A stretch of DNA of 42,574 nucleotides. Origin: Mycobacteriales bacterium. Lineage in GTDB: Bacteria; Actinomycetota; Actinomycetes; JAFAQI01; DASSKL01. Both the position numbers and the translations under genes were made by a program. The DNA lies in the NCBI GenBank assembly GCA_035690485.1, contig DASSKL010000050.1, positions 1 through 42,574 on the forward strand, in the 5' to 3' direction. This document shows positions 2,138-9,558 of this stretch, one piece after another (within the stretch, counting starts at the first letter, position 1; each line of letters opens with the position of its first letter). The notes below the pieces were generated by a model. That model had not been told where the DNA came from, searched no databases, and saw only the letters and a program-made list of their open reading frames with translations.

Positions 2138-2973
2138 CCGAGGCCGTCGTCGTCGCCAGCGCTCTGGGTTCTGCAATGGCGGCGGCATCGTCCAGCGTGC
2201 TGCAACACCGCAGCGCGCGGAAGGCTCCGGCCGTCCACGCCCGCGCCGGCCGCCTGCTCGGACACCTGGCCACCCGGCCGGACTGGCTGCTCGGCCTGGT
2301 CTTCGCCGCCGTCGGGCTGGGCCTGCACACCTACGCCCTGGCAGGTGGGCGCCTCGCGATCGTGCAGCCGCTGCTCGTCTGCGGCGTGCTCTTCGCCCTG
2401 CCGGCGAGCGTCGCCCTGGAGGGCCGCCGCCCCTCGGCGACGCAGTGGCTCTGGGGCGTGGCGCTGCTGGCCGGGCTCCTGGTGTTCCTGCTCACCGCGC
2501 GGCCGAGCCCGGGCCGGGTCTCGATCGACGCCGACGTGCTGGCGGTCACCACCGCGGTGGGCGTGGTGGTCGCCGGAGCGGTGGCCCTCATCGGGTTGCG
2601 CTGGCCGCACGGGCACCAGGCCGCGCTGCTCGCAACCGCCGCCGGGATCGGCTACGGGCTGGTCGCCGCGCTCCTCAAGCAGAACGCCGCGCTCGCGGCC
2701 AACGGTCCCGCCGCCGTGCTGGGCGACTGGCCGCTCTACGTCCTGCTCGCCGTCGGTGCCGTGACGCTGTCGCTCACCCAGCACGCCTACCGCGCCGGGC
2801 CGTTGAGCGGCTCGCTCCCGGCGCTGACCGTGAGCGATCCCGCGGCCTCGGTGGCGATCGGCGCGCTCGCCTTCCACGAGCACCTCGCCCACTCCCCCGG
2901 CGCGGTCCTGCTCGAGGCGCTGGCGTTCGCCGTCATGGGGCTGGCCACCGCCCGGCTCGCCCTCGCCGACTGA
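2134..2973 (+). CDS. EamA/DMT-superfamily membrane protein
   Basis: A 279-residue multi-pass membrane protein with about nine or ten hydrophobic segments spread through the chain. Two related halves and small-residue-rich helices are consistent with the drug/metabolite transporter (EamA/DMT) fold. The conserved late segment (Y-R-A-G-P-L-S-G-S-L-P) resembles the half-repeat of actinobacterial DMT proteins. The start is the GTG at 2134, whose bases overlap the glycosyltransferase stop (GTGA). The open frame extends much further upstream, but that part lies inside the glycosyltransferase in another frame. Coupling to the GT4 gene suggests export or flipping of the product made by that enzyme. 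The substrate is unknown. Confidence 0.8.
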   Translation: MTEAVVVASALGSAMAAASSSVLQHRSARKAPAVHARAGRLLGHLATRPDWLLGLVFAAVGLGLHTYALAGGRLAIVQPLLVCGVLFALPASVALEGRRPSATQWLWGVALLAGLLVFLLTARPSPGRVSIDADVLAVTTAVGVVVAGAVALIGLRWPHGHQAALLATAAGIGYGLVAALLKQNAALAANGPAAVLGDWPLYVLLAVGAVTLSLTQHAYRAGPLSGSLPALTVSDPAASVAIGALAFHEHLAHSPGAVLLEALAFAVMGLATARLALAD

Positions 2974-2990
2974 TCCGCCAACAGGCGATC

Positions 2991-3036
2991 GTCAACTAAC
3001 GGTTGACGGCGAATCATGCGTCAACTTATGGTTGAC
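2991..3036 (+). promoter_or_regulatory. Leaderless promoter embedded in two identical dyads
   Basis: Two perfect inverted repeats GTCAAC-N5-GTTGAC lie at 2991-3007 and 3020-3036, 29 bases apart start to start. A promoter fits inside them: -35 TTGACG at 3003-3008, an 18-base spacer, and -10 TATGGT (TAnnnT type) at 3027-3032. The ATG at 3039 is 7 bases from the -10, so transcription would begin at or beside the start codon and give a leaderless mRNA. No Shine-Dalgarno is present. A dimer bound to each dyad would cover both promoter hexamers, the geometry of a repressor site. The obvious candidate ligand is the HTH-containing protein encoded just downstream. Confidence 0.75.
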
Positions 3037-3038
3037 CC

Positions 3039-3767
3039 ATGACGCAGCACCCCGTCCGGCTGGGCGACCTCATCGACGAGGTCCTGGCCAAGAGCCCCGA
3101 GGGCGACGCCCTCCAGCACCTGGCCGACGCCGTCGACAGCTCGCAGCGGCTCGGCGAGCTCGCCGACCACCTCATCGGTCACTTCGTCGACCAGGCCCGC
3201 CGATCCGGTGCGTCGTGGACCGACATCGGCGCGCACATGGGCGTGACCAAGCAGGCCGCGCAGAAGCGCTTCGCGCCGCGGGAGTCCGAGGATCTGGACT
3301 TCCCGGCGGGTGGGCGGCTGAGCAGGTTCACCCCGCGGGCGCGCAACAGCGTGCAGGTGGCGAAGGCCGAGGCGCAGCGGCTCAACCACGACCGGGTGAC
3401 GAACGCCCACCTGCTGCTCGGGCTGCTCGGTGAACCGGAGGGGCTGGCCGCGAAGGCGCTGGTGGCGCTGGGCGCGCCGGCCGAACGCCTCCGCGAGGCG
3501 ACGCTCGCCGCCCTGCCACCGGGCCGGACGGCACCGAAGCACTTGCGGTTCGGCCGCGGCGCGAAGAAGACGTTGGAGCTCTCGCTTCGCGAGGCGCTGC
3601 GGCTCAACCACAACTACATCGGCACCGAGCACATCCTGCTCGGACTGCTGCGCAACGACGACGACGTCACCAGCGACCTGCTGCAGGGCTTCGGCATCAC
3701 GCGCGACGGCGCGCACGACTGGCTCGTGCAGGAGCTGGCGACGATCGCCGCGGCGAAGCGGGGCTAG
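3039..3767 (+). CDS. Clp N-domain protein with helix-turn-helix
   Basis: A 242-residue protein without any AAA+ ATPase module. Residues about 59-79 (S-W-T-D-I-G-A-H-M-G-V-T-K-Q-A-A-Q-K-R) read as a helix-turn-helix. Two Clp_N repeats follow at about 96-160 and 168-240, each with the A-x-R-L-N-H-x-x-(V/I)-x-(T/N) pattern and the H-(L/I)-L-L-G-L-L core seen in ClpA/ClpC N-domains. Clp_N domains bind substrates or adaptors of Clp proteases. This is therefore probably a DNA-binding regulator that senses a Clp-type ligand, or is itself handed to the protease. The ATG sits 2 bases after a GTTGAC half-site and has no Shine-Dalgarno, consistent with leaderless translation. The gene is convergent with the CMD-like gene, with no gap. 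The autoregulatory role is an inference from the adjacent dyads. Confidence 0.88.
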   Translation: MTQHPVRLGDLIDEVLAKSPEGDALQHLADAVDSSQRLGELADHLIGHFVDQARRSGASWTDIGAHMGVTKQAAQKRFAPRESEDLDFPAGGRLSRFTPRARNSVQVAKAEAQRLNHDRVTNAHLLLGLLGEPEGLAAKALVALGAPAERLREATLAALPPGRTAPKHLRFGRGAKKTLELSLREALRLNHNYIGTEHILLGLLRNDDDVTSDLLQGFGITRDGAHDWLVQELATIAAAKRG

Positions 3768-4397
3768 TCACTCCTCGAACATCGACATCGGGTCGAAGCC
3801 GGTCGGCGCCTCGACCTCGACGATCGGGTCGTCGCGGTCGTCGAACTCGACCCGCAGAGCGCGCGACATCACGGCGTGCATGAGGTAGAGCGACGTCGTG
3901 TAGGTCAACTCGAGCACCTCCTCGTCCGACAGGTGCTGCTGCAGCGCCTCGACGACCTCGTCGGCCACCCGGCCGCGGTCGTAGACGAGCCCGTCGGTGT
4001 AGGCGAGCACCGCGCGCTCGAGCGGCGTGAAGCAGTCGGCGACCCCCCAGTGCGGGATCGCCCGCACCTTCTCCTCCGGGATGCCGACGCCGCGGGCCGA
4101 CTTGCAGTGCTGCGAGAACACGAACTGGCTGCCCACCGCCCAACCGGCGCGGGTCATGCCGAGCTCACGCAGCTGGGGGTCGAGCCGGCGGTCGGGGCTG
4201 CGGTAGAGACCGAAGCCCTGCACGGCGTGCTTGAGGACGTCGGGCACCAGCGCGAAGACCGTCCACCAGTCGCCGGGCGTGCCGGTCGCGGTGCCGGGCT
4301 CGGCGACCGGGTCGCGGTCGGGACCGAAGAGCCGGTCGTAGAGCCGGGTGGCCAGCGGGCCCGCCTCGGCCCGGCCGACCTGGCGCAGGCGGGGCAT
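3768..4397 (-). CDS. AhpD/carboxymuconolactone decarboxylase-like protein
   Basis: A 209-residue all-helical protein of the CMD/AhpD-like superfamily. The core helix G-W-A-V-G-S-Q-F-V-F-S-Q-H-C at 85-98, followed by A-R-G-V-G-I-P, matches the (Y/F)-x-W/F-x-x-H-x-x-x-A-x-x-x-G pattern of CMD proteins. The later L-E-R-A-V-L-A-Y-T-D segment is the usual second conserved helix. The redox C-x-x-C of classical AhpD peroxidase is absent; only H97-C98 occupy that area. A dithiol peroxidase function is therefore unlikely, and a decarboxylase-like or unknown role is open. The ATG overlaps the TGA of a 15-codon leader ORF (TGATG), so translation is probably coupled. It follows the flavin operon on the same strand with a 53-base gap before the leader and may be its last gene. 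Confidence 0.82.
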   Translation of the reverse strand: MPRLRQVGRAEAGPLATRLYDRLFGPDRDPVAEPGTATGTPGDWWTVFALVPDVLKHAVQGFGLYRSPDRRLDPQLRELGMTRAGWAVGSQFVFSQHCKSARGVGIPEEKVRAIPHWGVADCFTPLERAVLAYTDGLVYDRGRVADEVVEALQQHLSDEEVLELTYTTSLYLMHAVMSRALRVEFDDRDDPIVEVEAPTGFDPMSMFEE

Positions 4398-4497: not shown

Positions 4498-5271
4498 TCA
4501 CCCCGGGAAGCCGTCGCTGCGGCGTACGACGCCGGCCCGGTCGACCGTGAGCAGCGTGTAGCCGTCGAGCCGGCCGAACCACGAAGGCTGCGGGTCGCCG
4601 CCCGCGATGACCGCGGTGGCGTAGGCGTCGGCCCGGGTCAGGTCGGGACCGACGACGGTGGCACTGAGCAGCCGGGTCGCCGGGGCGCCGGTACGCGGGT
4701 CGATCACGTGCTCCCCGCGCTCGGCGACTCCCGAGGTCGCGACACCTTCGTCGCGCGCCGGCACGACGACCAGCACGCGGTTGCGGTCGTACGGGTCCGC
4801 GACACCGACCCGCCACGGCTCACCGGGGCCGGGCTCGCCGGCGCAGGCGACGTCGCCGCCGGCGTTGACGACGTGGTCGGACAGGCCGGCTCGGCGCAGC
4901 AGGACGCTCGCCTCCTGCGCGGCCCAGCCCTTGACGATGCCGGTCGGGTCGACCGCGCCGCCGATCAGTGCGGTGAAGAACCCGTCGGTCTCCGCCGCCG
5001 CCTGGGCGCACAGGTCCAGCACGACGGCGACCTGCGGGTCGCAGTCACGCAGCCGCAGCTCGCCGCGGCGCAGCCGGCTGAGCTGCGACTCGGGCTGGTA
5101 CGTGGAGAACGTCGCGTCGACCCATCGCAGCCAGTCGCAGGCCGCCTCGACCGCGCGCGCCGCGTCGTCGGGATCGATGCGGATGCGGCGTACGTCGAAA
5201 GAGGTGACCGTCCCCATCACCGGCAGGACGCGGCGGTAGCTGTCGCCGGCGGCCTGTCCGGTGCTGGTCAC
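4498..5271 (-). CDS. apbE: FAD:protein FMN transferase (ApbE family)
   Basis: A 257-residue flavinyltransferase that moves FMN from FAD onto a Thr of target proteins, using Mg2+. Family motifs are in order: M-G-T at 19-21, D-P-T-G-I-V-K-G-W-A at 108-117, N-A-G-G-D at 136-140, H-V-I-D-P-R-T-G at 188-195 and the metal-site D-A-Y-A-T-A at 215-220. No clear signal peptide or lipobox is present, so it may act on the cytoplasmic side or be exported without a typical signal. The GTG start overlaps the stop of the FMN-binding protein gene by four bases, so the enzyme and its probable substrate are translationally coupled. That substrate carries a textbook flavinylation site. It is slightly short compared with Gram-negative ApbE (about 330), as is common in actinobacteria. 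Confidence 0.93.
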   Translation of the reverse strand: MTSTGQAAGDSYRRVLPVMGTVTSFDVRRIRIDPDDAARAVEAACDWLRWVDATFSTYQPESQLSRLRRGELRLRDCDPQVAVVLDLCAQAAAETDGFFTALIGGAVDPTGIVKGWAAQEASVLLRRAGLSDHVVNAGGDVACAGEPGPGEPWRVGVADPYDRNRVLVVVPARDEGVATSGVAERGEHVIDPRTGAPATRLLSATVVGPDLTRADAYATAVIAGGDPQPSWFGRLDGYTLLTVDRAGVVRRSDGFPG

Positions 5272-5759
5272 GCCTTCAGTCTGTCGAGCGCCGACTGCAA
5301 CGACCTGACGTAGCCCTCGGAGGTGTAGGTCGCGCCGGACACCGCGTCGATCTGCGCGGACTGCGCCTGCAGCGCCTCGGCGCGCAGCTGCGGCACGGCG
5401 TAGTTGTCGATGTCGATGTCACGGCCGCTGCCCTGCGGCAGCTGCAGCGCCGCGACGTCGGTGATCCGGCCGTTCGACTCGGTGACCTGCACCTGCACCG
5501 GGCCGTACTGCGTGTCGTAGGTCCGGCCTGCGACGGTCCGTGGCCCGGACGCCGCCGGCGCGGCGCCGGCCTTCGTGCTGCCGCTCGTCGCGCCCGCGGG
5601 GGTGCCGGAACCTCCACTGCCGGACGCCGTCTTGCCCCCGGCGGTCGGGGCGAGGGCGGCGGTGCCGCCGCCGATGGCGGGGCTGCCGTGCGTCTTGAAG
5701 CCGAGCAGCAGCACGAGGCCGGCGATGGTGGAGACGATGGCGAGTGCGGCGCGACGCAC
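5268..5759 (-). CDS. Membrane-anchored FMN-binding domain protein
   Basis: A 163-residue protein with one N-terminal hydrophobic segment (residues about 4-21), a flexible Gly/Ser/Thr/Ala-rich linker (about 25-75) and an FMN-binding domain (about 78-163). The site D-A-V-S-G-A-T at 138-144, followed by Y-T-S, fits the Dgx(s/t)gAT flavinylation consensus, with T144 as the expected covalent FMN acceptor. The domain should sit outside the membrane and carry electrons. The GTG start at 5759 is chosen because AAAGGA lies 7 bases upstream and the hydrophobic anchor begins right after it; the frame is open further but reads as non-coding. It lies between the reductase and apbE in the same operon. It resembles known ApbE-dependent extracytosolic flavoproteins; its electron acceptor is unknown. 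Confidence 0.9.
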   Translation of the reverse strand: MRRAALAIVSTIAGLVLLLGFKTHGSPAIGGGTAALAPTAGGKTASGSGGSGTPAGATSGSTKAGAAPAASGPRTVAGRTYDTQYGPVQVQVTESNGRITDVAALQLPQGSGRDIDIDNYAVPQLRAEALQAQSAQIDAVSGATYTSEGYVRSLQSALDRLKA

Positions 5760-5784
5760 GGGGCGGTCCTTTCGAGAGGGGGGG

Positions 5785-7161
5785 TCAGAACGCGAAGTTC
5801 TCGCTGTGGATGTGCCGCCGGCTGACGCCGAGCCGGCGCAGTGCGGCAGTAGCGGCGTTGACGAATCCGGGCGGGCCGCACACGTAGACGTCGTGCGCGC
5901 GCAGGTCCGGCAGCAGCCGGCGCAGCCGGTCGCCGACCAGCACGTCGCGGTCACCGCCGACACGACCGGGCAGGAAGTGTGCTGCCTGCTCCCGGCGCTC
6001 GGCCAGGGTCTCGATCTCGCGCCGCAGCACAAGGTCGTCCGGACGCTCGGCGCGGTAGACCAGCGTCAGGTCACCGGGTGCCGCCGGCAGCGACTGGAAC
6101 AGCGCCCGCAGCGGGGTGATGCCGATGCCGCCGGCGAGCAGCAGGACCTTGCGCCGCGTGCGCCGCTGCGCGGTCAGCGCCCCGTAGGGCCCTTCGACCA
6201 GCACGCGGGTGCCGTGCCGCAGCGCCGGCATGTGACCCGTGTGGTCGCCGAGGTGCTTGACGGTGACGCGCAGCAGGTCGCCGTGGGGTGCGGCGGACAG
6301 GGAGAACGGGTGGGCCGCCCACCAGAGGTCGCGGCTCAGGAAGCGCAGCCGGACGAACTGGCCGGGCTGCACCCCGAGCTCGTCGACGTGCCGGCCGCGC
6401 AGGACGATCGACACGACACCCGGCCCCTCGGCGACGACGCGGCCGACCCGCATCCGGTGCCGCCACGTGCGGTAGGCCGGGGTGGCGATGCGGTGCCAGA
6501 CGACGGCGCCCGCGGCGAACAGGTAGAGCGCCGACCACAGCACCCGCGCGAACGGGTGGCTGGCGAACTCCTGCCCGGTCGCGAAGACGTGCGCGAACGA
6601 CAGGGCGATCGCGAGATAGGTGTAGAGGTGCAGGTAGTACCACGTCTCGTAGCGCATCCGGGCCCGCGCCGCGCGGGCCGACACGACGCCGACCCCGACC
6701 AGCAGCAGCCCGCCGACCGTCGCCATCAGCACGTCGGGATAGCTGAGCAGCAACGTCGACGCCTGGCGTACGACGCCGGTGTGGGCCAGCACGGCGTAGC
6801 CCCAGGTGACGAGCAGCCCGTGTGCCACGACGAGGCCGACCGTGTAGCGGCCGGCACGGGCGTGCCAGCGGGCGAGGACGTCGGCGCCGACGTGGTGCTC
6901 GAGCAGCGGCGTACGCGCCATCAGGATCAGCAGCCAGGCCAGCAGGTAGCCGGCGAGCAGGCCGGTGATGCGCCCCGCGTTGGTCAGCCAGTCGCCGAGG
7001 CCGTGGACGGTGGGGGTGTTCACCCACCACCAGCCGACCACCGCGGCGGCGCCGGCTGCGACGGCGAGCGCCGTCAGCGGAGCGACCAGCCGCCCGCGTC
7101 CCGGCCGCGCGGCGAGCAGCGGCCCACGCGTCGTGGCCGGAGTGTCGGCGAGAGCGGTCAT
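5785..7161 (-). CDS. Ferric-reductase-like transmembrane flavin oxidoreductase
   Basis: A 458-residue membrane oxidoreductase. The N-terminal half has about six hydrophobic helices with paired histidines suited to heme b (H100 and H114, H178 and H191), the ferric-reductase/NADPH-oxidase-like core. The C-terminal half is a ferredoxin-NADP reductase-type module: FAD motif H-P-F-S-L-S at 284-289, nucleotide motif A-G-G-I-G-I-T-P at 343-350 and C-G-P-P-G-F at 428-433. It should take electrons from cytosolic NAD(P)H through FAD and heme to the outer face. The next gene encodes a tethered FMN protein and the third encodes ApbE, so the likely flow is NAD(P)H, FAD, heme, FMN protein, unknown acceptor. 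The ATG has GGTGGA upstream. It is divergent from a response regulator across a 142-base gap holding the CAGAG boxes. Confidence 0.92.
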   Translation of the reverse strand: MTALADTPATTRGPLLAARPGRGRLVAPLTALAVAAGAAAVVGWWWVNTPTVHGLGDWLTNAGRITGLLAGYLLAWLLILMARTPLLEHHVGADVLARWHARAGRYTVGLVVAHGLLVTWGYAVLAHTGVVRQASTLLLSYPDVLMATVGGLLLVGVGVVSARAARARMRYETWYYLHLYTYLAIALSFAHVFATGQEFASHPFARVLWSALYLFAAGAVVWHRIATPAYRTWRHRMRVGRVVAEGPGVVSIVLRGRHVDELGVQPGQFVRLRFLSRDLWWAAHPFSLSAAPHGDLLRVTVKHLGDHTGHMPALRHGTRVLVEGPYGALTAQRRTRRKVLLLAGGIGITPLRALFQSLPAAPGDLTLVYRAERPDDLVLRREIETLAERREQAAHFLPGRVGGDRDVLVGDRLRRLLPDLRAHDVYVCGPPGFVNAATAALRRLGVSRRHIHSENFAF

Positions 7162-7268: not shown

Positions 7269-7303
7269 CATCGCGTCACGTCCCCGATGTGAAGGTGACA
7301 TCC

Positions 7304-8056
7304 GTGACCGCCTCCTCCGCCGCCTCGCCGCGTACCGCCCCCGACCTGCGCCGCCCCGACGGCTCGCCGATCCGGGTGCTCGTCGTCGACGACGAGCCGA
7401 GCCTCGCGGAGGTCCTCGGCAGCGTGCTGCGCTACGAGGGTTGGGATGTCCAGGTGGCCGGGTCAGGGCAGGAGGCCGTGCGGACCGCGCGGGAGTTCAA
7501 GCCCGACGCGGTGATCCTCGACGTGATGCTGCCGGACTTCGACGGCCTGGAGGTGCTGCGCCGCATCCGCGCGGATCAGCCGCACGCCTGCGTGCTCTTC
7601 CTCACCGCGCGCGACGCGGTCGAGGACCGCATCGCCGGCATCACTGCGGGCGGCGACGACTACGTCACGAAGCCGTTCAGCCTCGAGGAGGTCATCGCCC
7701 GGCTGCGCGGCCTGCTGCGCCGGGCCGGGCTGGCCCGGGCCAAGGCGTCGAGCAACCTGCTGAGGTTCGCCGACCTCGAGATGGACGAGGACGCACACGA
7801 GGTACGCCGCGGTGGTGACCTGGTAGAGCTGACCACGACCGAGTTCGAGCTGCTGCGCTTCCTCCTGCGCAACCCGCGCCGGGTGCTGTCCAAGGCGCAG
7901 ATCCTCGACCGGGTCTGGAACTACGACTTCGGCGGGCAGGCGCACGTGGTCGAGCTCTACATCTCCTACCTGCGCAAGAAGATCGACGCAGGCCGCGAAC
8001 CGCTGATCCACACCGTCCGCGGTGCCGGCTACGTGTTGAAGGCAGTAGGCGGGTGA
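7304..8056 (+). CDS. OmpR/PhoB-family response regulator
   Basis: A 250-residue two-domain response regulator. The receiver has the acidic pair D29-D30 (V-V-D-D-E-P), the phosphoacceptor D73 (V-I-L-D-V-M-L-P) and a K-P-F motif. The C-terminal winged-helix domain has the T-T-T-E-F-E-L-L-R-F-L-L and Y-I-S-Y-L-R-K-K-I-D patterns of the OmpR/PhoB class. The GTG at 7304 is chosen because GAAGG lies 8 bases upstream; a GTG at 7289 would add five residues but has no Shine-Dalgarno. The stop overlaps the kinase GTG by four bases. Upstream are direct repeats spaced 11 bp, the site type this family binds, so autoregulation and control of the divergent flavin operon are likely. Confidence 0.94.
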   Translation: MTASSAASPRTAPDLRRPDGSPIRVLVVDDEPSLAEVLGSVLRYEGWDVQVAGSGQEAVRTAREFKPDAVILDVMLPDFDGLEVLRRIRADQPHACVLFLTARDAVEDRIAGITAGGDDYVTKPFSLEEVIARLRGLLRRAGLARAKASSNLLRFADLEMDEDAHEVRRGGDLVELTTTEFELLRFLLRNPRRVLSKAQILDRVWNYDFGGQAHVVELYISYLRKKIDAGREPLIHTVRGAGYVLKAVGG

Positions 8057-9558
8057 CCTTGCGGTTGCGCCGGTGGTGGACGGCGCGGACGTTGCGCTGG
8101 CGGCTGATCGCCGGGCTGCTCGTGCTGCTGCTGGCGACCTGCGCGGCGATCGGCATCGCGACGACGCTCGCGCTGCACAGCTTCCTGATCCAGCGGCTCG
8201 ACCAGCAGCTGGCCGACGCCGGGCCACGGCTGGCGTTCAGCCTCGAGCACGACAACAGCGGCGGCCGTGGCGGCGCGCCCACCGACTTCGACGACAGCCT
8301 GCTGCGCGGACAGCAGCTCGGCACCTTCGCCGCCCGGCTCAGCGGCGGTCGGGTGACCAACGCAGCGGTGGCCCGCGAGTCCGACCACCAGGTGCAGCTC
8401 GTGCAGGTGCCCCTCGGCGGCGACGAAGCCGCGCGCCTGCGCGCGCTGCCCACCGACGGCCGGGCGACCTCCGCGCAGCTGGGCGTGCTCGGCGACTACC
8501 GGCTCACCGCGGTGCACGGCGCGGACGGCGACGTGCTCGTGACCGGGCTGCCGCTCGACAGCGTCGACAGCACCATGCACCGCCTGGAAGGCATCGAGGT
8601 CGTCGTCTTCCTGTGCGCGCTGGCACTGGCGGGTCTGGTGGGCGCGGCGTCGGTCCGGCTGTCGCTGCGACCGCTGCGCCGGGTGACGCACACGGCGCTC
8701 GACGTGGCGCGCACGCCGCTCGCCAGCGGCGAGGTCTCGCTGCCCGCGCGGGTCCCCGACAGCGATGCCGATCCGGCGACCGAGGTCGGCCAGGTCGGCG
8801 CCGCGGTCAACCAGATGCTCGGCCACGTCGAACGTTCGCTGGCCGAGCGGCACGCGACCGAGGAGCGGCTGCGCCAGTTCATCGCCGACGCGAGCCACGA
8901 GCTGCGCACCCCGCTGGCCGCGATCCGCAGCCACGCGGAGCTGGCCGGCCGCGACGAGGAGACCCTGCCCGACGGCGTACGCCATGCGCTGCGCCGGGTC
9001 GAGGCGGAGGCGTCGCGCATGGGGGTGCTCGTCGACGACCTGCTGCTCCTGGCCCGTCTCGACGCGGGCCGCCCGCTGGCCAGGGAGGCCGTCGACCTGA
9101 CCCGCGTGGTGATCGACGCCACGAGCGACGCGCAGGCGGCCAGCCGCGGCCACCGGTGGATGCTCGAGCTGCCCGAGGAGCCGATCGTCGTCACCGGCGA
9201 CGGGCACCGCCTGCACCAGGTGCTCGCGAACCTGCTGGCCAACGCCCGCACGCACACCCCGGCCGGTACGACGGTGACGGTGGCGCTGCACATGGATGTC
9301 GCGAACGACCTTGCGCTGCTGCAGGTCTGCGACGACGGCCCGGGGATACCGCAGGAATTGCAGGACCGGGTCTTCGAACGCTTCGCGCGGGCCGACGCGG
9401 CGCGCACCCGCACCGCCGGCAGCACCGGGCTGGGGCTGGCGATCGTCGCCGCGGTCGTCGAGGCGCACGGCGGGACCGTGCGCGTCAGCAGCCGGCCCGG
9501 TCGCACCTGCTTCGAGGTGTCGCTGCCACTGGCTCCGGCGATGCAACCGGCGCGCTAG
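8053..9558 (+). CDS. Sensor histidine kinase with HAMP domain
   Basis: A 501-residue membrane kinase. Transmembrane helix 1 (about 15-42) and helix 2 (about 176-204) flank a sensor loop of about 130 residues outside the cell. A HAMP linker follows, then HisKA with the phosphoacceptor H282 in D-A-S-H-E-L-R-T-P. The ATPase domain has the N box (A-N-L-L-A-N-A-R-T-H-T), G1 (D-D-G-P-G-I-P) and G2 (G-S-T-G-L-G-L-A-I-V). The GTG start overlaps the regulator stop (GTGA). The sensor loop has no Cys and no recognised domain, so the signal is unknown; redox or envelope state is plausible given the divergent electron-transfer operon. It is convergent with the aminotransferase gene, with the stops directly abutting. 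Confidence 0.94.
   Translation: MTLRLRRWWTARTLRWRLIAGLLVLLLATCAAIGIATTLALHSFLIQRLDQQLADAGPRLAFSLEHDNSGGRGGAPTDFDDSLLRGQQLGTFAARLSGGRVTNAAVARESDHQVQLVQVPLGGDEAARLRALPTDGRATSAQLGVLGDYRLTAVHGADGDVLVTGLPLDSVDSTMHRLEGIEVVVFLCALALAGLVGAASVRLSLRPLRRVTHTALDVARTPLASGEVSLPARVPDSDADPATEVGQVGAAVNQMLGHVERSLAERHATEERLRQFIADASHELRTPLAAIRSHAELAGRDEETLPDGVRHALRRVEAEASRMGVLVDDLLLLARLDAGRPLAREAVDLTRVVIDATSDAQAASRGHRWMLELPEEPIVVTGDGHRLHQVLANLLANARTHTPAGTTVTVALHMDVANDLALLQVCDDGPGIPQELQDRVFERFARADAARTRTAGSTGLGLAIVAAVVEAHGGTVRVSSRPGRTCFEVSLPLAPAMQPAR

Follow-up and report, generated by a model that had tools for sequence, protein, structure and literature searches.

The window analysed here, a stretch of 42,574 nucleotides (nt) from a Mycobacteriales bacterium (contig DASSKL010000050.1), carries a gene for a protein of 242 amino acids (aa) in which a predicted helix-turn-helix (HTH) is joined to two Clp_N repeats, preceded by two dyads of the form GTCAAC-N5-GTTGAC. 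By its sequence matches the gene is the clpC2 ortholog of an actinomycete. The features of the locus are as follows.

2991–3007, strand not applicable: operator dyad 1, GTCAAC-TAACG-GTTGAC, GTCAACTAACGGTTGAC; exact match, the right arm holding the -35
3003–3008, + strand: -35 hexamer TTGACG, overlapping the right arm of dyad 1
3020–3036, strand not applicable: operator dyad 2, GTCAAC-TTATG-GTTGAC, GTCAACTTATGGTTGAC; exact match, holding the -10
3027–3032, + strand: -10 hexamer TATGGT, from a sigma70-like scan; TAnnnT is conserved in dyad 2 only of the homologs
3039–3767, + strand: clpC2 ortholog, 242 aa, predicted to be leaderless; Clp_N E 3.4e-23, matches to PDB 8ADA, 8AD9 and 9P2P
3039–3275, + strand: N-terminal dimer/HTH domain, residues 1–79 (AlphaFold2 model)
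3246–3272, + strand: predicted recognition helix TKQAAQKRF, residues 70–78 (AlphaFold2 model)
3321–3713, + strand: double Clp_N domain, residues 95–225 (Pfam, PDB matches, conservation, Foldseek)

The clpC2 gene and its promoter

Pfam detected two stretches of Clp_N (E 3.4e-23) in the 242-aa protein and no AAA family; the Clp ATPase models of NCBIfam matched via the Clp_N region only and far below cut-off. The protein has no AAA+ ATPase and is not a member of the ClpC/ClpA unfoldases. Residues 2–69 match the N-terminal domain of Rv2667/ClpC2 of Mycobacterium tuberculosis (PDB 8ADA, E 8.5e-21), and the C-terminal part matches the ClpC2 crystals 8AD9 and 9P2P and also crystals of the ClpC1 N-terminal domain (ClpC1-NTD); the gene was assigned as clpC2 because of these matches in both parts. 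A ClpC1-like match is also present in this genome (contig C5). The structure was modelled with AlphaFold2 on an alignment of 45 homologs (mean predicted local distance difference test, pLDDT, 92.7), which superseded a discarded single-sequence model (pLDDT 40.6). Helices 60–67 and 71–78 of the model form the HTH, with high confidence (block pLDDT of about 97 and 89), and the original prediction of a protein joining an HTH to two Clp_N repeats without an ATPase holds, the HTH being a modelled one. Foldseek aligned the modelled double Clp_N domain with ClpC1-NTD and with 8AD9. The domain shares the double Clp_N fold of ClpC1 (6UCR, 3WDC), with a root-mean-square deviation of 1.2 Å between model and 6UCR over about 148 aligned columns; unlike ClpC1, the window ClpC2 lacks the AAA+ modules and the protease docking and has an added N-terminal HTH.

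The two dyads lie 29 nt apart. They had been described as identical, which is correct for the arms (perfect in both dyads) but not for the 5-nt spacers (TAACG vs TTATG). The hexamers TTGACG and TATGGT, separated by 18 nt, overlap the dyads as predicted and are the only sigma70-like match in 2900–3900 (shuffled sequences, 0.0±0.1). Between the -10 and the ATG at 3039 there are six bases (3033–3038), which leaves no room for a Shine-Dalgarno sequence, and a leaderless start is therefore expected.

In the 3.13 Mb genome the two dyads are the only exact copies of GTCAAC-N5-GTTGAC; about 0.05 copies of one dyad are expected by chance from mononucleotide composition, and a reversed control pattern gave 0 exact matches. 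Thirteen one-mismatch sites elsewhere in the genome were considered as a regulon and rejected, since each lies inside a long reading frame with high GC3. A search for the dyad ahead of clp or chaperone genes, which the original prediction had proposed, thus revealed no such regulon: this genome has one site pair only, and in Nocardia an extra site is found at a flavin adenine dinucleotide (FAD)-monooxygenase instead (see below).

Conservation of the operator and the published autorepression

Conservation was assessed in 52 further full-length ClpC2 homologs, with up to 2 mismatches allowed per dyad. A tandem dyad is present upstream in all 52 (Streptomyces, Kutzneria, Nocardia, Mycolicibacterium and others). 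The dyads are spaced by 28 or 29 nt in 50 of them and by 23 nt in the other two; the ATG follows dyad 2 by 2–3 nt in the former and by 7 nt in the latter. The distance from the TTGAC of dyad 1 to the ATG is 35–37 nt in 52/52, and 35 nt in the two genomes with the 23-nt spacing. The dyad may therefore move, but promoter and start stay in place, a property that is new beyond the published system. In these two genomes (L102, L103) the -10 would sit in the last arm (TTGACT). The spacer of dyad 2 has T at position 2 in 48/52 and A at position 3 in 49/52, corresponding to the -10, and the spacer of dyad 1 shows no preference, so the operator arms and the -10 appear to be conserved for separate reasons. 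A variant operator was seen at six loci (L156, L157, L161, L165–L167), where dyad 1 starts with GACAAC and dyad 2 ends with GTTGTC; only the two outermost half-sites change, and they change together, which makes the entire 45-bp element a symmetric variant.

The start site in the window is predicted from geometry alone, and transcription could in principle begin further upstream, the short distance to the ATG being accidental and the gene having a leader. This is very unlikely in view of the single sigma70-like site in 2900–3900, the constancy of the -35 to ATG distance (35–37 nt in 52/52, including the two with shifted dyads) and the ATG position 2–3 nt after dyad 2 in 50/52. The window clpC2 transcript is expected to be leaderless, with a geometry that is kept in the 52 homologs.

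When genomes were searched for the tandem pattern by itself, 72 of the 297 from the class and 116 of 120 from one genus had matches, and the reversed control yielded 0. ClpC2 starts 2–3 nt after the pair at 56 of the 59 tandem loci read. Two loci of genus g53 (L184, L185, from two genomes) were considered as HTH-only genes with dyads and rejected; they are decayed clpC2 copies with remnant operators. The dyads might instead be the operator of another regulator, with ClpC2 merely one of its targets, and a few other genes do have the same tandem dyads (the FAD-monooxygenase of Nocardia and a methyltransferase in genome G337). This we regard as highly improbable, as the tandem dyads track clpC2 across the class (the 56 of 59 loci above), most genomes, that of the window included, have no second exact pair, and mycobacterial ClpC2 binds the dyads in vitro.

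The autorepression system of ClpC2 is already published, and the core finding is known. Mycobacterial ClpC2 represses its own gene and shifts CGTCAAC-n5-GTTGACG in gels (Taylor et al. 2023, PMC10030653). This operator lies 1–2 nt ahead of the open reading frame and is often repeated upstream, over the -35 and -10; leaderless clpC2 transcripts were suggested, the gene is derepressed in a clpC2 deletion strain, and binding of cyclomarin A to the Clp_N domain lifts repression (PMC10030653). Heat induces clpC2 more mildly, and ClpC2 was ascribed a sponge role that protects ClpC1 (PMC10030653). Among three ClpC1-binding peptides only cyclomarin triggers the system, and unfolded protein was proposed as the natural signal, which is less well shown (2026, PMC12913811). 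The window shares with ClpC2 (Rv2667) of M. tuberculosis and M. smegmatis (PMC10030653) the N-terminal dimer/HTH part, the ClpC1-NTD-like part, the tandem operators over -35 and -10, placed and duplicated as published, and probably also the suggested leaderless transcript and the conserved cyclomarin-contact residues. The putative equivalents of the latter are F97, F171 and E180 (F96, F172 and E181 in M. tuberculosis), placed by spacing to the numbering of PMC10030653, and the dimer pair D46–R57 of Rv2667 corresponds to D43 (100% conserved) and R54 (98%). The window differs in species and in the outermost base of dyad 2, whose GTTGAC ends 2 nt before the ATG and is followed by C (GTTGACC) vs G in the published operator; the evidence here, moreover, favours reading of the sequence by the N-terminal HTH and not by the C-terminal domain.

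The original prediction thus rebuilt a published mechanism from raw sequence. Its autorepressor read through a Clp_N ligand is supported here and was demonstrated experimentally for the mycobacterial ortholog (PMC10030653), and its claim to novelty falls. The Clp adaptor or degron that it offered as ligand gives way to a ClpC1-targeting cyclic peptide, the proven ligand. For the window, the result is one more actinomycete that probably has this antibiotic-sensing switch, which shows the conservation of the system.

The domain that reads the operator

The N-terminal crystal of Rv2667 comprises residues 4–72 and the C-terminal one residues 94–252 (PMC10030653). Residue 72 aligns to V69 of the window protein, just ahead of the predicted recognition helix (70–78), and this helix is therefore in neither crystal. 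It is among the most conserved stretches of ClpC2: the mean column entropy is 0.27 bit at residues 70–78, and the Clp_N repeats have means of 1.48 and 1.05 bit. The HTH of ClpC2 was also seen by HHpred (2026, PMC13284704). It is held in common with the RelI antitoxin (Rv2664, 9SDC; E 1.6e-5 to 9SDC) and with HTH-DUF3887 fusions (PMC13284704); RelI differs in having no Clp_N and in pairing with a toxin.

The same tandem dyads occur at HTH proteins without Clp_N. Dyad and ATG are 2 nt apart in the HTH-only genes of Nocardia at L252, L300 and L311 and 8 nt apart in L290 (1983–2588), which encodes an HTH-DUF3887 protein; L291 (1158–2038) is a two-gene unit of an 81-aa protein and an HTH protein. 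No dyads were found at HTH-only homologs with other recognition helices (SGQAAHKRL, SRQAVHQK), nor at the closest Clp_N-less homologs retrieved from the G015 family, which have recognition helices unlike that of ClpC2. That any HTH of this fold suffices for the dyads was rejected, since HTH-only homologs of the RelI kind are without them, which fits their different recognition helices. Seven further HTH-DUF3887-like loci (L292–L298) showed no tandem dyad within the part of the upstream region that was scanned, so that L290 is the single case of this association. Tandem dyads were also observed at a gene for an S-adenosylmethionine (SAM)-methyltransferase (L288, 1139–2025), which has its GTG 2 nt past the pair. 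The operator thus follows the HTH: HTH proteins without Clp_N share it and homologs with other helices lack it. This suggests, as an addition to the published model, that the N-terminal HTH reads GTCAAC-N5-GTTGAC and that Clp_N serves as the ligand sensor.

Several points weigh against this assignment and the mechanism built on it. The HTH does not reach the cut-off of curated Pfam (best 0.0095). Taylor et al. assigned DNA binding to the C-terminal (Clp_N) domain, their R185A/R189A variant binding less DNA and raising expression 2-fold (PMC10030653). In the window ClpC2 both arginines are conserved, so contact of its Clp_N domain with DNA may occur as well. For the window species, finally, binding by ClpC2, expression and start site are carried over by conservation.

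If Taylor et al. are right, the Clp_N domain recognises the operator and the N-terminal domain only dimerises. In line with this, the probable equivalents of R185 and R189, R184 and R188 (placed by spacing), are at least 98% conserved, their helix is likewise conserved (0.41 bit), and the cyclomarin binding site lies near R185/R189. However, the isolated C-terminal domain performed deficiently in gel shifts, an N-terminal substitution, R57A, caused stronger derepression than R185A/R189A (4.6-fold vs 2-fold) and ClpC1 shows little DNA specificity (all PMC10030653). Together with the position of the recognition helix outside both crystals and the same operators at HTH proteins without Clp_N, this makes recognition by the Clp_N domain unlikely. 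If the HTH reads the operator, the present view of the way in which cyclomarin relieves repression would change.

We therefore favour, with a probability of roughly 0.93 for the reading as a whole, that the window ClpC2 acts as a dimer to repress the leaderless promoter of its own gene, with an operator read by the HTH and repression relieved by a ligand of Clp_N. Operator, promoter, leaderless geometry and domain order agree point for point with the published system, and the window ortholog probably acts as mycobacterial ClpC2 does. A ClpC2 dimer would bind each dyad through its N-terminal HTH, and, since the two dyads together cover the -35 and -10, bound ClpC2 would keep RNA polymerase off. 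Filling of the groove of the Clp_N domain, the ligand sensor, by a ClpC1-targeting cyclic peptide (cyclomarin A), or probably by unfolded protein, would weaken DNA binding and induce clpC2, and the surplus ClpC2 would soak up the ligand and spare the essential ClpC1.

A possible second target in Nocardia and the window neighbourhood

In genus g38, about 35 of the 120 genomes have a second exact tandem pair. This genus was identified as Nocardia because the pair in G290, linker included, is identical to the N. amikacinitolerans pair (L013). All second loci read (L238–L253, L256) are located ahead of an FAD-monooxygenase (1703–3326 in L252), which matches Pfam FAD_binding_3 (1.1e-19) and, in NCBIfam, PRK07588 best with tetracycline destructase also high, all below the curated cut-offs. 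When the enzyme was taken as the starting point, the 30 closest FAD-monooxygenase homologs (L299–L328, Nocardia) showed the tandem operator at 29, with perfect arms in 26; the thirtieth (L307) is a shortened stretch. In most of the 30 loci a ribosome-site-like GGAG stretch shortly precedes the coding start of the monooxygenase.

A divergent HTH-only gene shares the operator, its start lying 2 nt beyond the pair. Judged by motif, it is intact at just three of the 30 loci; in most it has decayed or is gone, and remnants of it are seen at others of the 30. Its own -10 is kept in 13 of 15 loci with an ATG at the start position vs 3 of 14 without (Fisher p 0.0007; the genomes are related and p overstates their independence). 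The operator arms persist even as this -10 is mostly lost. Something must then still read the arms, and ClpC2, for which these genomes, where examined, have a gene at another place (e.g. L254, L255, L257), is the obvious candidate. We give about even odds to the combined proposal that the HTH reads the operator in a sequence-specific manner and that ClpC2 in Nocardia also controls the FAD-monooxygenase (tetracycline-destructase-like/PRK07588). ClpC2 would then couple the sensing of Clp-targeting natural products, ClpC1-targeting antibiotics among them, to a possibly detoxifying enzyme that could modify such compounds. No ClpC2/Rv2667 ChIP-seq (chromatin immunoprecipitation sequencing) and no link to a Nocardia monooxygenase were found in the literature searched, most subscription papers being outside it.

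Downstream of clpC2 in the window, genes for a ferric-reductase-like membrane protein, an FMN_bind protein and an ApbE flavin transferase follow in a row on the - strand (4498–7161) and likely form a flavin-based electron-transfer unit; a two-component pair (7289–9558) adjoins them.
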